The position numbers were made by a program, and so were the translations under genes. From an uncultured Pirellula sp. (lineage in GTDB: Bacteria > Planctomycetota > Planctomycetia > Pirellulales > Pirellulaceae), in assembly GCA_903892365.1 (NCBI GenBank), contig CAITIF010000070.1, positions 1 to 15,225 on the forward strand: a stretch of 15,225 bases of DNA, written 5' to 3'. Shown in pieces: positions 202 to 11,919 of the stretch (the first letter of the stretch is position 1; each line of letters begins with the position of its first letter). Below the pieces are notes generated by a model. That model was given only the letters and a program-made list of their open reading frames with translations, had not been told where the DNA came from and did no database searches.

Positions 202-1350
202 ATGAGATCCAATATTTTTTTGCTTTTGGCGGGTTGTTTCTTCTCCATCGCGACGGCTTCAGCCTCGGATTTTGAGCTGTTGTCTCCGTTGGACTACCAA
301 GTGATTCAGCGGGCGACAGCCGCTGCTGGCGAAATCCCTATTTCCATTCGACATCCCGCTGATCTGCCACCTCAATGTTTGTTGCAGGCGAGAATCATTG
401 CGGATTCGAATCCTGAGCCATGGCAAGTTTTGACGGTCGCTCGCACGGACGGCGCATTGCGGACCCAATTGGACTGGAAGTCGGGAGGGTGGTTTCAGCT
501 AGAACTTCGTGTAACCGTCGACGAGAAAATTGTCTGGGAGGATTCGGTGGCTCATGTTGGTATCGGGGAAGTGTTTGTCGTAGCCGGCCAGTCCAATTCA
601 GCCAACCATGGTGAAGAACGGCTGAAGACAAAAACCAATATGGTATCGGCTTTCGACGGCCATCATTGGCAGATCGCCAATGACCCGCAACCGGGTGCGA
701 GCGGACAAGGAGGCAGCTTCATGCCCCCTTTTGGAGACGCAATGGCGAAGCAATTGAACGTTCCCATTGGTATCCTTGCTTGTGGGATCGGCGCGACAAG
801 CGTTCGCGAGTGGCTACCGGAGGGGGATACCTTTCCCAACCCACCCACGATTGAAGATCGAGTGATTCGGTTGCCAAATGGGAATTGGCAATCCAAGGGG
901 GCGGCCTTTGCCAATCTGATTGCATCGCTCCAGTCGCAAGGGCCCGGAGGTGTTCGAGCCGTTCTGTGGCATCAGGGCGAAAGCGACGCAAACCAGCGCG
1001 ACCCATCTCGAACCCTGGAAGGTACTCGATACCGTGCGAGTCTTATCAGGCTCATCGAGGCTTCGAGAAAGGAGATCGCATGGGACGTTCCATGGTTTGT
1101 CGCTCAAGTCAGTTATCACGTTCCAGGCGATGAAGCATCACCTGACATTCGAGCAGCCCAAGCCTCCTTGTGGAACGCCGGAATCGCTTTGGAAGGTCCC
1201 GATAGCGATTCGCTGAAGGGAGATTTGCGAGAAAACAATGGCCAAGGTGTTCACTTCAGTTCCCAAGGTCTGAATGCACATGGCGAGGAATGGGCCAAGA
1301 AAGTAGCCCCATGGCTCAAGTCTGAATTAGCAAAAGAAAAAACAATGTAG
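202..1350 (+). CDS. Secreted sialate O-acetylesterase-like (SASA/SGNH) carbohydrate esterase
   Basis: This predicted exported esterase probably removes acetyl groups from sialic acid or other acetylated glycans outside the cytoplasm. The chosen ATG gives 382 residues that begin with a clear signal peptide: MRSN, a hydrophobic run, then a likely cleavage after ATASA. An in-frame GTG at 64 would add 46 residues in front of the signal peptide, so I reject it. An Ig-like domain seems to fill residues 25-120. The SGNH-type motifs follow: GQSNS near residues 129-133 with the nucleophile Ser131, GIGATSVREW, WHQGESDAN, and a late GVHFSS carrying the likely catalytic His. This order is typical of the family found in planctomycete glycan-degrading gene sets. 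No clear Shine-Dalgarno sequence precedes the start. The gene stands alone and converges on the sigma fragment. The family is fairly sure, the substrate is not. Confidence 0.85.
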   Translation: MRSNIFLLLAGCFFSIATASASDFELLSPLDYQVIQRATAAAGEIPISIRHPADLPPQCLLQARIIADSNPEPWQVLTVARTDGALRTQLDWKSGGWFQLELRVTVDEKIVWEDSVAHVGIGEVFVVAGQSNSANHGEERLKTKTNMVSAFDGHHWQIANDPQPGASGQGGSFMPPFGDAMAKQLNVPIGILACGIGATSVREWLPEGDTFPNPPTIEDRVIRLPNGNWQSKGAAFANLIASLQSQGPGGVRAVLWHQGESDANQRDPSRTLEGTRYRASLIRLIEASRKEIAWDVPWFVAQVSYHVPGDEASPDIRAAQASLWNAGIALEGPDSDSLKGDLRENNGQGVHFSSQGLNAHGEEWAKKVAPWLKSELAKEKTM

Positions 1351-1371
1351 AACAGTTGTCCTCAACTGTTC
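1350..1371. terminator. Probable bidirectional terminator between convergent genes
   Basis: A perfect 9-bp inverted repeat, GAACAGTTG and CAACTGTTC, encloses the 4-nt loop TCCT and overlaps the last base of the esterase stop codon. On the plus strand an A-rich tract precedes it. On the minus strand the same tract reads as a T-rich stretch beginning six bases after the stem. It therefore fits best as a terminator for minus-strand transcripts from the sigma fragment and possibly also for the esterase. Confidence 0.5.
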
Positions 1372-1463: not shown

Positions 1464-1961
1464 CTAGATCGGTCGTTCGCCGTTGGCTACAACGCCTTGA
1501 TAAGGAGTCATGTCCAAACCATCGATGAAGCTGGTCAACGACTTGCTTCGTTGTGGGTGCTGTAGCTTCTTAACAGCCTTGCTTTCAATTTGACGAACGC
1601 GTTCGCGAGTCACTTGGCGTACTTTGCTCATCGTGTCGATCATGTGCACAGGAACACGAATGGTACGGCTTTGATCGGCGATAGCGCGTGTGATCGCTTG
1701 ACGAATCCACCATGTGGCATAGGTCGAGAACTTGAAGCCTCGTTCGTATTCGAACTTATCGACGGCTCGCATCAGACCTGTGTTCCCCTCTTGAATCAGG
1801 ACCAAGAAGCTGAGCCCACAGTTGCGGTACTTCTTAGCGATTGAAACAACCAAGATGCAATAAGTGGGTGGCGCCGTTTTGCTGGTTGAAATTTGATGAT
1901 TGTTGAGCTTTGCTGAATTTGCGACGATATGATGACGATCAATAGCACCACTTTCGACCAA
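1464..1961 (-). pseudogene. Truncated, internally deleted rpoD copy (sigma region 2 joined to the end of region 4.2)
   Basis: An open reading frame of 165 residues whose last ~128 residues match the RpoD encoded at 3026-4684. Residues from about 38 on cover regions 2.1-2.4. The frame then jumps at QVTR straight to [15 protein letters not shown], the recognition helix of region 4.2, and continues to the same C terminus. Region 3 and the first half of region 4 are missing. The matching DNA is 1471-1854 against 3033-3764, about 94% identical by eye and without indels apart from the 348-bp deletion. Residues 1-37 are unrelated to RpoD and come from DNA that overlaps the next gene's 5' end. Two highly conserved residues are changed, Arg to Cys in the RNRGLSF motif and Asp to Val in LDLIQEG. 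The deletion argues for a remnant, but the frame is intact and an expressed mini-protein cannot be excluded. Confidence 0.85.
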
Positions 1962-2798
1962 ATTTCAGGCAGTCATCAAGTAGTCATGATTCAGAAGAAG
2001 CTCCATCGACTGAAGCACCGAACCATTCCGTTTTCGACTTGCGGTGTGGGGCAACCCCTGCTGCTGCTTCATGGCTATCCGCTTGATAATCGACTTTGGT
2101 CGGGCGTCATGCCTCTTTTGGCCAGCAGTTTTTTTTGCATCGCTCCTGATTTTCGCGGATTTGGAGAATCGTCAGAGGAAACAAAGTCTTTTTCGATAGC
2201 CGACCTTGCAGATGATTGCGACTCCCTTCTTCAGGGGCTGGGTATTCGCAACCAAGTTTTTGTTTGCGGATTATCGATGGGTGGCTATGTCGCGATGGAG
2301 TTGATAGAACGCCATCCGGACTTGTGCTCGATGGCCATAATGACAAACACAAGATGCAATTCGGATGAACCCACGGTGGTATCGCATCGTCGATCGGTTG
2401 CAAACATCGCGCTTCGCGATGGGGCGGTCGAGGCCGTCTTGCCGATGCTTTCAAAACTTTTAAGTCAGGACACTTTCACCAACAATCCAACCATCGTCGA
2501 ATTCGTTAAGGATATGATGACTTCTACCAAAGCATCAACGATCGCGTGGGCTCAGTTGGCAATGTCGCATCGCGCAGATTTTTCGCTACGAATGAAAAGC
2601 TGGACAATCCCAGTTGTCTGTATAGGCGGACGCGACGACACTATTTGCCCACCCACGTCACTCGAGCAGATGTCAATGGCGATCCCAAAAGCCACGACCT
2701 TTCTGGTGGATAATACGGCACACTTGACTCCATTGGAAGCTCCGAGAACATTTGCTTCCATTTGCCAACAAGCCCAACGTAAGACCGATGGGCGGTGA
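1929..2798 (+). CDS. Alpha/beta-fold hydrolase
   Basis: A cytoplasmic alpha/beta hydrolase of 289 residues with no signal peptide. The visible family signatures are the oxyanion-hole motif HGYP near residue 48, the DFRGFGES strand-turn after it, the nucleophile elbow GLSMG with Ser116, a probable acid in GGRDD (Asp236), and the catalytic His265 in [10 protein letters not shown]. The overall pattern resembles esterases and 3-oxoadipate enol-lactonase-like enzymes, but the substrate cannot be told. An alternative ATG at 1986 (residue 20) would remove the overlap with the sigma-fragment frame and still keep the whole fold. Neither start has a good ribosome binding site. The gene is enclosed by the two rpoD-derived direct repeats and is read opposite to them, which suggests it arrived or was rearranged together with the duplication. 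Confidence 0.85.
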
Positions 2799-3025: not shown

Positions 3026-4684
3026 CTACATTGGTCGTTCGCCGTTGGTTACAATGTCTTGATAAGGAGTCATATCCAAACCATCGATGAAGCTGGTCAA
3101 CGACTTGCTGCGTTGTGGGTGCTGCAGCTTTTTGACTGCTTTGCTTTCAATTTGACGAACACGTTCACGAGTCACTTGGAAAATCTTGCCCACTTCTTCC
3201 AACGTGTAAGCATAACCGTCTGCCAAGCCGTATCGTAGTTTCAAGATCTCTCGCTCGCGGTAGTTCAGCGTTTGCATGGCTTCTTGAATCTGCTCTCGCA
3301 ATGTTTGCTGATTGGTTTCGTACAACGGGTCATCGTCTCGGTAGTCTTCCAAGAATTCGCCAAAGAAGCTGTCTTCATGGTCGCCAACAGGTTGGTCCAA
3401 AGATAGCGGCTGACGAGCCATCTTGATGACAACTCGAGCATCGTCGAGCGACAAGCCAGCTCGTTGTGCTGTTTCTTCGACGGATGGTTCGCGTCCCAAT
3501 TCTTGAATCAGATCGCGAGTCACTTGGCGTACTTTGCTCATCGTGTCGATCATGTGCACAGGAACACGAATGGTACGGCTTTGATCGGCGATAGCGCGGG
3601 TGATCGCTTGACGAATCCACCATGTGGCATAGGTCGAGAACTTGAAGCCTCGTTCGTATTCGAACTTGTCGACAGCTCGCATCAGACCTGTGTTCCCCTC
3701 TTGAATCAAGTCCAGGAAGCTGAGCCCACGGTTGCGGTACTTCTTGGCGATCGAAACGACCAAGCGAAGGTTGCCAGCCGACAGTTCACGCTTGGCTGCG
3801 TCGTACTGGAGTCGGAATCCATGGACTTTTTCGCAACGGCGAGCAAGGGTTGCAGGTGTCTCGTAAGTGATTCGCATCAAGTATCGAATCTCTTCCTTGA
3901 GCTTGGACATCGGCACACCGTCGGAAAAGCCGGTTTCTTCAGCATTTTTCATTCGACCCTTGAGCAATTGCATTTGGTTCGAGATGGTCGCAAGCTTGGC
4001 AAAGATGGGCTCAAGTCGGTTCGTTCGCAAGTTCATTTCTTCGATAAGACGAACTGCTTTGTTGCGTCGGCAAACCAAACGCTTCCAAGCCAACCGTCGC
4101 TCGTCCATAGGCTGGCTCTTGTTGATCGCAACGTGGTAGTCGCCGTGGTTGCGAAGGAGCAATTGGCGAAGAGTCTTGATGTTCGGACCAATGCGACGCA
4201 TGATCGCAACCTTTTCTGTTGCGTTGGTCACGCTAACTTCAATGGTTCGGTCCAATCGTAGCTTGCTGTCGCGAACTTGCTCGAGCAATTTTGTCGCCCC
4301 TTGTAGGACGAAATCCGAAGCGAGCATCCATTGGCGGTAGTCGGTGCGGGTGAATTCAATCTTCTTCGCAGCACTGACTTCTTCCTGACGAGTCAGCAAA
4401 GGAATCTCGCCCATCTGGATCAGGTACATTCGAACTGGGTCGTCCGTGGCATCGACAACTTCATTGTCGTCCGACTCTGGGAAGAAGTCGTCTTCGATTC
4501 CATCGTTTTCAAGCGAATCCTCATCGACGATGCGATCCGAGTGGTCGGCATCTTCCTCTTCCTCTTCTTCGAAGCCAAAACCTTCTACCTCGCCACCCAC
4601 GAAGTCTTGGTCTTCGCTAATATACGAATAGCCCGATTTTTTACCGGCGTTGTTCGAAGTCGTTCGATTGAATCGCTTGGTCAT
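3026..4684 (-). CDS. rpoD: RNA polymerase primary sigma factor RpoD (sigma-70)
   Basis: The housekeeping sigma factor that directs RNA polymerase to -10/-35 promoters. The ATG at 4684 gives 552 residues starting MTKRFNRT. A longer frame reaching 4876 would run into the divergent comEC start and is not family-like. There is no classic region 1.1; instead residues 39-80 are strongly acidic (six Glu in a row at 39-44). Region 1.2 begins at DDPVRMYL near residue 81, then comes a long non-conserved region. Region 2 starts near residue 305 ([20 protein letters not shown]) and includes the [14 protein letters not shown] promoter-melting helix. Region 3 follows, and region 4 begins near 470 with the helix-turn-helix at about 494-514 ending in [11 protein letters not shown]. 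About 25 extra residues follow region 4. The gene has no Shine-Dalgarno sequence and a truncated copy lies downstream. Confidence 0.97.
3168..3527. repeat. 12-bp direct repeat pair inside rpoD that marks the deletion endpoints of the copy
   Basis: The 12-mer CGAGTCACTTGG occurs at 3168-3179 and at 3516-3527, 348 bp (116 codons) apart. Both copies encode the QVTR peptide, once in region 3 and once in the region 4.2 recognition helix. The truncated copy holds it once, at 1606-1617, flanked on one side by sequence matching the left repeat and on the other by sequence matching the right repeat. Confidence 0.85.
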
Positions 4685-10830: not shown

Positions 10831-11919
10831 ATGAATACAACTTTCATTTCACCTCGGAATTTCCGACCACGCCGCGCCTTCACTCTTGTTGAACTCCTTG
10901 TCGTGATTGCCATCATCGGCATTCTTGTGGGGCTGTTGTTGCCCGCGGTACAGGCGGCTCGCGAAGCTGCTCGTCGAATGCAATGCGGCAACAACATTCG
11001 CCAGCTTGCACTTGCCATGCACAACTATGAATCGGCGCATCGACGTCTTCCTACGTTTTGTTCGATCAATACGGGAAACGCAGGCAACTTTTCGATCCAC
11101 TCCAACTTGTTGCCTTTCTTGGAGCAATCGAATTTGCAAAGCACCTTGGATTACAATCAAAGCTTGACGGTAGGCTGTTGCCCAGGAACGCTTCGTCCAC
11201 AGTTTGTTCAACCGGCCAAGACGATCGTAAGTTCGTTCCGATGCCCCAGTGATAACGGCCCCGATCTCTTTGATGTGATCACGCTGAGCGGTCGAGGCCC
11301 AACGGAACAATATGCTGGCAACAATTACCATATCAATACAGGCACGGCGGTTGGTACGTTGTACGACTCTCGGCTTCCTACCGATGGCATTGCGTGGACC
11401 AACTCGCGTCTTCGATTTGCGGATGTAATCGATGGACTGAGTAACACAGCCGCTTTCTCCGAATCGCTGCGCGGACTTGCGACCAATAACGTACCTGCGC
11501 CAACAACCCAGGCCGACCGGTTGCGCACGATGGTCAACGTTGCCTGCGTTTGGTCTTCTTCCTCGGTGCCACCCGCACAAGCGGGATTAGCCAACGGATT
11601 TCAAGCACCGGTTGACCCAAGTCTTTTTGAAACGGCGGTGGTTGCCATCAGTCGTGGCTTCAATGGGCAACGTGGTGGCGGCTGGATCAACGGTCGCGAG
11701 TACTACACAGCCTACAACCATTACCATGCCCCGAACTCGCCTATTCTTGACATGAACACCTGCGGCTATGGAATCTTCGCAGCAAGAAGCCTGCATACGG
11801 GTGGGGTGCATGTTGCTCGCTGTGATGGCAGTGTTGGATTCATCAGCAGTGCGACGGAGCTCGCAGTCTGGCGCGCTTTAGGGACTCGAAATGGCGGCGA
11901 AGTTTCCGCCATCGACTAA
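10831..11919 (+). CDS. DUF1559 domain protein with prepilin-type N-terminal signal
   Basis: A 362-residue pseudopilin-like protein of the large DUF1559 family that is expanded in planctomycetes; its exact role is not established. A basic leader (residues 1-16, ending RPRRA) precedes the cleavage site A16/F17 and the [16 protein letters not shown] helix with the usual Glu at +5. This site has Ala rather than the common Gly at -1. After the helix comes the family signature [17 protein letters not shown]. Near the C terminus lies the H-X9-DG motif, His322 to Asp332-Gly333 in [15 protein letters not shown], and the usual end [11 protein letters not shown]. It would be processed by a prepilin peptidase and anchored in the membrane by its helix. 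It sits between the Cys-rich gene and two DUF4198 genes, all on one strand. There is no Shine-Dalgarno sequence. Confidence 0.93.

Follow-up and report, generated by a model that had tools for sequence, protein, structure and literature searches.

The window, by which we mean the whole stretch of DNA analysed here, comprises 15,225 nucleotides of the genome of an uncultured Pirellula sp. (G000). It contains the intact gene for the housekeeping sigma factor RpoD and, in the space between an esterase gene and an alpha/beta hydrolase gene, a second, partial copy of it. The features on which the discussion is based are the following:

1347 to 1371, forward strand: REP hairpin GTAGAACAGTTGTCCTCAACTGTTC with a GTAG tag, overlapping the esterase stop codon; the REP-like repeat given below is at the opposite end of the fragment
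1464 to 1854, reverse strand: partial, very probably decaying rpoD copy, recognized by its match to the intact rpoD and by Pfam
1464 to 1961, reverse strand: open frame of 165 amino acids over the copy, with a TTG start at 1961 and without the rpoD start
1606 to 1617, forward strand: 12-mer CGAGTCACTTGG, in which the deletion junction falls; no exact repeat of the fragment is longer
1857 to 1875, forward strand: REP-like repeat GCAATAAGTGGGTGGCGCC, 2 nt past the end of the rpoD homology
1929 to 2798, forward strand: alpha/beta hydrolase gene between the copy and rpoD, in synteny with G002
3026 to 4684, reverse strand: intact housekeeping rpoD, the parent-type gene, with an ATG at 4684 (the longest ORF reaches 4876)
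3168 to 3179, forward strand: 12-mer CGAGTCACTTGG in region 4.2 of the intact rpoD, encoding the QVTR before ERVRQ
3516 to 3527, forward strand: 12-mer CGAGTCACTTGG in the intact rpoD, encoding the QVTR at the start of region 3

The original prediction held that the copy had arisen by an in-frame deletion between two 12-bp repeats, and the alignment with the intact gene that it proposed as a check bears this out. Two matching blocks are obtained, between which the offset changes by 348 bp: positions 1464-1617 of the copy match 3026-3179 of rpoD with 14 differences in 154 nt, and positions 1603-1854 match 3513-3764 with 10 differences in 252 nt. With each base counted once, the copy differs from the intact gene at 23 or 24 positions, depending on where the junction is placed. 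One limit of the homology is the rpoD stop codon, and the other is position 1854 (3764 in the intact gene). The 12-mer CGAGTCACTTGG occurs three times in the window (1606, 3168 and 3516, each time on the forward strand), and the two occurrences in the intact gene are indeed 348 bp, or 116 codons, apart, which is the length missing from the copy. No longer exact repeat is present in the 738-nt stretch that begins with LVVSIAK and ends with the stop codon, so that the junction lies at the expected site of a repeat-mediated deletion; a repeat of 12 nt or more was found in 53 of 2000 codon-shuffled versions of this stretch. The reading frame survives the deletion because both repeats encode QVTR in the same frame.

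As to the protein that could be made, only 1464-1854 of the open frame is derived from rpoD, while 1855-1961, corresponding to about 36 codons, is flanking sequence that includes the REP-like repeat. The Pfam search finds region 2 from position 8 to position 71 of the 71 of PF04542 (67.6 bits), which means that the copy begins inside this region. Region 3 is absent in the same search, and region 4 is represented only by positions 31-50 of the 50 of PF04545, at a score of 21.4, below the curated cut-off of 24.1. In the copy, region 2 is thus fused in frame with the second half of the helix-turn-helix of region 4.2, a motif whose first helix is missing, and the tail and the stop codon follow. 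The earlier description of the copy as region 2 plus the region 4.2 recognition helix is therefore right about the fusion, but region 2 is partial and the region 4 remnant falls below the cut-off. Compared with RpoD and other group 1 sigma-70 factors, region 2 is nearly identical to that of the intact gene and the tail and stop are kept, whereas regions 1.2, 3 and 4.1, half of the 4.2 helix-turn-helix and the gene's own start are gone, and the R and the D of the NRG..LDLIQEG stretch have been replaced. We take it that these two residues could have a role in core binding, but it is their invariance alone that is considered here; a literature search on core-binding residues returned nothing. A functional RpoD-type factor has regions 2, 3 and 4 together with a start codon and upstream signals of its own. 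Here, the start is a TTG in unrelated flank, and what is found is a truncated derivative of a gene that is intact elsewhere, which is one of the marks of a pseudogene.

A scan of 1300-2300 with the sigma-70 consensus gave no promoter-like site, which is a weak test because shuffled sequences average 0.8 matches and other promoter types lie outside the scan. The openness of the frame is weak evidence for function as well. Of neutral substitutions 3.9% create a stop, and a neutral frame of 165 codons with 9-11 substitutions would stay free of stops about 65-70% of the time, with substitutions counted and indels left aside.

We now consider the relatives that carry the fragment. Two public proteins were retrieved in a protein search, among the best 120 of 7999 matches. 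The first, P0001, has 165 amino acids and is 95% identical to the window frame over 100% of it, with the same fusion and the same flank but different substitutions. The arrangement that the original prediction proposed to look for in relatives is thus present. P0001 represents a 90% cluster of 7 sequences on 15 contigs, the longest of 84,625 bases, and the fusion is known from the representative alone. The window's own sequence may be among these 7, but P0001 itself is distinct from it, since the two are 95% identical. The second protein, P0002, has 202 amino acids and is known as one sequence, which one source names 'RNA polymerase primary sigma factor'. Its flank and its entry point into rpoD are those of the window, but its internal deletion is another one: DHEDSFF is followed directly by DGMDMTPYQ, with a loss of about 92 codons as measured on the intact gene. 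It retains region 3, lacks the 12-mer fusion, and continues for 11 residues past GERPM, beyond the end of rpoD. Over its region 2-3 part (134 residues) it differs from the G000 RpoD at one residue. When the P0002 flank was used as the query, P0001 and P0002 were the two candidates out of two. The copies have VVAN in common, where the rpoD genes of G000 and G002 encode VVTN or IVTN; YQG and RPI are likewise common to the window copy and P0001. Since P0002 has the same flank and entry point and a different deletion, probably one longer fragment was inserted, and pieces of it were lost separately in related lineages.

Outside these proteins the copy is rare. The nearest rpoD among 59 other genomes is that of G002 (99% identical in protein), which is syntenic with the window (1871-7521 matches at 93.5%); no second rpoD piece is found at the corresponding G002 locus, and a RAYT-like transposase gene is there instead. 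Among 241 genomes of the family, the P0001 query has an end-to-end match in one, namely G000 itself (338 bits, residues 1-165). The best matches in the other genomes have E values of 2.2e-49 or worse and at most 168.6 bits among those listed, and one genome has no match at 1e-30; in such a scan a decayed fused copy that scores below the intact rpoD of the same genome would not stand out. Patterns for the junction and for the boundary between the REP-like repeat and the rpoD homology gave no match in genome_contigs, although the window's own genome, or genomes very close to it, may be missing from these scans. The idea that the fusion is widely present was rejected on the basis of the single family genome and the two empty scans.

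The changes in the copies were next compared with the variation in rpoD itself. The comparison set consisted of 26 genes, that is, G000 and 25 of 29 loci; G027, G029, G033 and G034 were dropped because the motif search missed them. Of 118 codons compared, 98 columns are invariant. The window copy has R12C and D18V, and P0001 has L14F, R38W, A53T and T64M, all in columns that are invariant in 26 of 26 rpoD genes, and none of these six changes is common to the two. Between the window copy and P0001, 6 of 129 residues are different, as compared to 1 of 130 between the G000 and G002 RpoD (Fisher p 0.066). With G015 as outgroup, the changes confined to the copy are 3 nonsynonymous and 4 synonymous, while those on the resident side (resident-only, G000-only and G002-only taken together) are 0 and 12 (Fisher p 0.036). 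This test leaves out the sites that G015 does not resolve or that fall in its unaligned tail, which are 2 nonsynonymous and 2 synonymous differences between the copy and the residents, 1 and 5 changes shared with one resident, and 1 three-state site. When the unresolved copy-versus-resident sites are included, the numbers become 5:6 against 1:12 (p 0.061).

Other results speak against a loss of constraint. In pairwise comparison, the copy differs from the G000 rpoD by 6 nonsynonymous and 17 synonymous changes in 130 codons, with far fewer nonsynonymous ones than under neutrality (p 1.5e-6), and from the G002 rpoD by 5 and 20; the ratio of 6:17 is not significantly different from the 1:12 between G000 and G002 (Fisher p 0.38). 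The nonsynonymous share of the copy-only changes is, if anything, somewhat below the neutral 75%, at 3 of 7 (p 0.075) or 5 of 11 (p 0.038). Because the copy agrees with G015 against both residents at 6 synonymous sites, it is likely that much of its divergence predates the freeing of the fragment, or is on the resident side, where selection limits the changes to synonymous ones. The P0002 remnant shows little decay beyond its deletion and the lost stop. Given the mostly synonymous changes, the little-changed P0002 and the open frames, the fragment may be young or may once have been under some constraint.

The surroundings of the fragment are rich in repeats. The hairpin at 1347-1371 has a 9-bp stem and a folding z of -6.69. 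Its 24-nt pattern (1348-1371, up to 3 mismatches) has 26 matches in G000 and 88 in G002, with 0 in the reversed control, and many of the copies listed have stem changes that are paired on both arms. At the same tolerance, 19 of the 27 genus genomes contain the pattern, and 1347-1371 is hence a GTAG-tagged hairpin present in many copies. Another 24 partial matches to the stretch 1340-1463 occur in G000. On the other side, motif ATAGGTGGGTGGCACC (up to 1 mismatch) has 9 matches in G000 and 12 in G002, with 0 in both reversed controls, and occurs in 13 of the 27 genomes of the genus. In the window itself the REP-like copy is more divergent (a looser pattern gave 7 matches in G000, control 0), and 1857-1875 folds no better than shuffled sequences (z +1.07, 177 of 200).

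Within G002, 9 of the 12 motif matches are located in the 5' part of a RAYT match or no more than 40 bp away from it, a count that used the 14 listed of 16 RAYT matches. A related repeat, GTGGGTGGCACC, is present at the 5' end of RAYT-like genes in G002, and the RAYT-like gene at the locus corresponding to the window adjoins GCAATAGGTGGGTGGCACC. The product of the latter gene matches NF047646 (REP-associated tyrosine transposase) with an E value of 8.3e-10 and 38.7 bits, the cut-off being 80, and a 385-aa part of it matched no Pfam family. As they score below the NCBIfam cut-off, the RAYT-like genes are perhaps a divergent RAYT group. One of the 16 RAYT-like matches in G002 is at L058, 935-2260, and the family has a match in 26 of 27 genus genomes, with up to 45 in a single one. 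GTAG-tagged REP families have been described from several phyla, including Planctomycetes (PMC3733652). The present locus resembles such REP/RAYT (TnpAREP) systems in the GTAG hairpin of the window and in the GTGGGTGGCACC repeats beside the G002 RAYT-like genes. It is unlike them in that no RAYT gene was found in the window by tblastn with the G002 protein (best E 0.13) and that this protein falls below the NF047646 cut-off. The flanking repeats and the comparison with the G002 locus thus place the fragment in a spacer that is rich in repeats and is not the same in the two species. Elsewhere in G002, a dispersed repeat of about 80-130 bp lies beside a REP motif (L112, 1526-1724, contig C82), with 74 matches in G002 and 37 in G000, the query itself included.

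In view of these data, we consider the copy to be, very probably, a decaying pseudogene fragment of rpoD and not a working mini-sigma factor. Two proposals concerning its origin are compatible with this reading. One is that the fragment came by transfer from the rpoD of a sister lineage instead of from the neighbouring gene, which we regard as a serious possibility, though less likely than not. When both parts are joined in one tree, the copy branches just outside G000 and G002, which form a pair with 81% support; in a tree of the 3' part alone (105 nt) its partner is G015 (95%, with near-zero branch lengths). Five of the six synonymous sites at which the copy agrees with G015 are in the 3' part (p 0.012 for this uneven spread), and by our own arithmetic the copy's own changes are fewer than expected of unconstrained sequence over the time that separates the residents. 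On the other hand, the region 2 part alone groups with G000, though weakly (46%), and G015 is not the nearest by distance, since 9 sites separate it from the copy in the first 105 nt of the 3' part, compared to 7 for G002 and 8 for G000. The NGERP tail is moreover of the G000/G002 type, and a duplication just before the species split fits the joined tree as well. Accordingly, either a sister lineage or, if the copying preceded the separation of the two species, the neighbouring rpoD may have been the donor. The two parts of the copy also differ in their divergence from the resident rpoD (14/154 in the 3' part, 10/252 in the region 2 part, p 0.049), which may reflect recombination of rpoD or a mixed origin of the copy. 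The other proposal is that REP repeat activity placed the fragment, an rpoD piece having served as template for the repair of a break made by the REP transposase. The end of the rpoD homology is 2 nt away from the REP-like repeat, the same spot in G002 has a RAYT-like gene beside a related repeat, the REP motifs of G002 cluster at RAYT matches as described above, and the fragment is flanked at its opposite end by another REP, the one with the GTAG tag. However, this is one locus only, the window's REP-like copy shows no preferred folding, and insertions also survive in repeat-rich spacers simply by being tolerated. At one G002 REP-motif site without a listed RAYT match (14 of 16 listed), it is a dispersed repeat that adjoins and no single-copy gene piece, while at another such site the first 246 nt have no second match in G002 or G000. 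We therefore find this placement unlikely. Somewhat more doubtful still is the broader notion that the REP/RAYT system of these planctomycetes opens DNA at REP repeats and that pieces of host genes from nearby are at times used to mend the breaks. If it were true, the rpoD piece would be a caught example, with its end 2 nt from a kind of repeat that in G002 adjoins a RAYT-like gene. A general rule of gene-piece capture at REP sites was looked for at two more G002 sites and not seen there.

The remaining alternatives would do away with the pseudogene reading altogether. According to the original prediction, the fused peptide of region 2 and the -35 helix could, if expressed, compete for the core enzyme or act as a decoy. 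Such a functional mini-sigma factor would compete for core RNA polymerase or promoter DNA, and this reading would draw support from the open in-frame fusion, found also in P0001 (the one member examined of its cluster of 7 sequences on 15 contigs), from the recognisable region 2 (67.6 bits for PF04542), and from the mostly synonymous pairwise differences from rpoD. Shortened RpoD derivatives can work: an engineered truncated RpoD containing region 2 was used to test binding of a -10 motif (PMC12340547), so that such an action is possible in principle, and RpoS is described as an RpoD duplicate with the N-terminal part lost (PMC7527412). The likeness to RpoS lies in an RpoD duplication followed by segment loss, but RpoS is functional and lost the N-terminal 1.1 region, while the copy is also without region 3 and most of region 4. 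For the copy, the frame starts in unrelated flank, the promoter scan, weak as it is, was empty, half of the helix-turn-helix is gone and the remnant of region 4 lies below the Pfam cut-off. Furthermore, different invariant residues have been changed in the window and in P0001, P0002 has lost another segment, and the end-to-end match is confined to one of 241 family genomes. The competitor or decoy role thus finds no support, and we rejected it as the main reading on the Pfam result for regions 2 to 4, the invariant-site changes and the promoter scan; a functional mini-sigma factor appears very improbable. A chimeric contig that joins pieces of rpoD is more improbable yet, to the point of being negligible. 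The assembly is a draft of 971 contigs, 77.88% complete and 4.97% contaminated, which would make such an error conceivable, but P0001 has the same fused frame and flank with other substitutions, at 95% identity, and the copy differs from the intact gene at 23-24 positions. The concern that the junction might be an assembly artefact was rejected on these grounds.

Pseudogene debris is thus the best reading, given the private changes at invariant sites, the separate P0002 deletion, the missing start and region 4 helix, and the rarity of the copy. Among the points that speak against it are the open frames of the window and of the two public proteins, and the fact that neither deletion disturbs the frame. 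A plausible course of events would be that a piece of rpoD, starting in region 2 and ending with the stop codon, was copied to a site beside the REP-like repeat, between the esterase and hydrolase genes. We infer a single such insertion, which would have occurred in an ancestor common to at least two other lineages known only from public proteins. The P0002 line would have parted first, with its separate loss of about 92 codons, and in the line leading to the window and P0001 slippage or recombination between the 12-bp repeats, of which we favour slippage, would have removed 348 bp with the frame kept. The window and P0001 remnants would then have gathered damaging changes, as expected of a piece that presumably has no function.

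Pseudogenes from partial duplication, with deletions between short direct repeats, are a known general kind. The present case is like them in the truncated paralog beside the intact gene, the deletion at the longest direct repeat, the private changes at invariant residues and the patchy presence. It is unlike them in that the parent is a housekeeping sigma gene and in that two in-frame deletions have occurred in related carriers. Among the titles listed in a literature search on truncated, partial, duplicated or pseudogene rpoD, most concern isolates and typing. What makes the case a clean one is that two different deletions are seen in what is apparently one inherited fragment, at a REP/RAYT site. 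It also calls for caution, as a sigma fusion that looks intact, keeps its frame and occurs in more than one lineage can be nothing but debris, which automated annotation may label as a sigma factor.

Further along the window, an ORF at 10831-11919 is prepilin-like, presumably of the DUF1559 type, and the stretch encoding its N-terminal part (10873-10994) resembles a many-copy stretch in both genomes.
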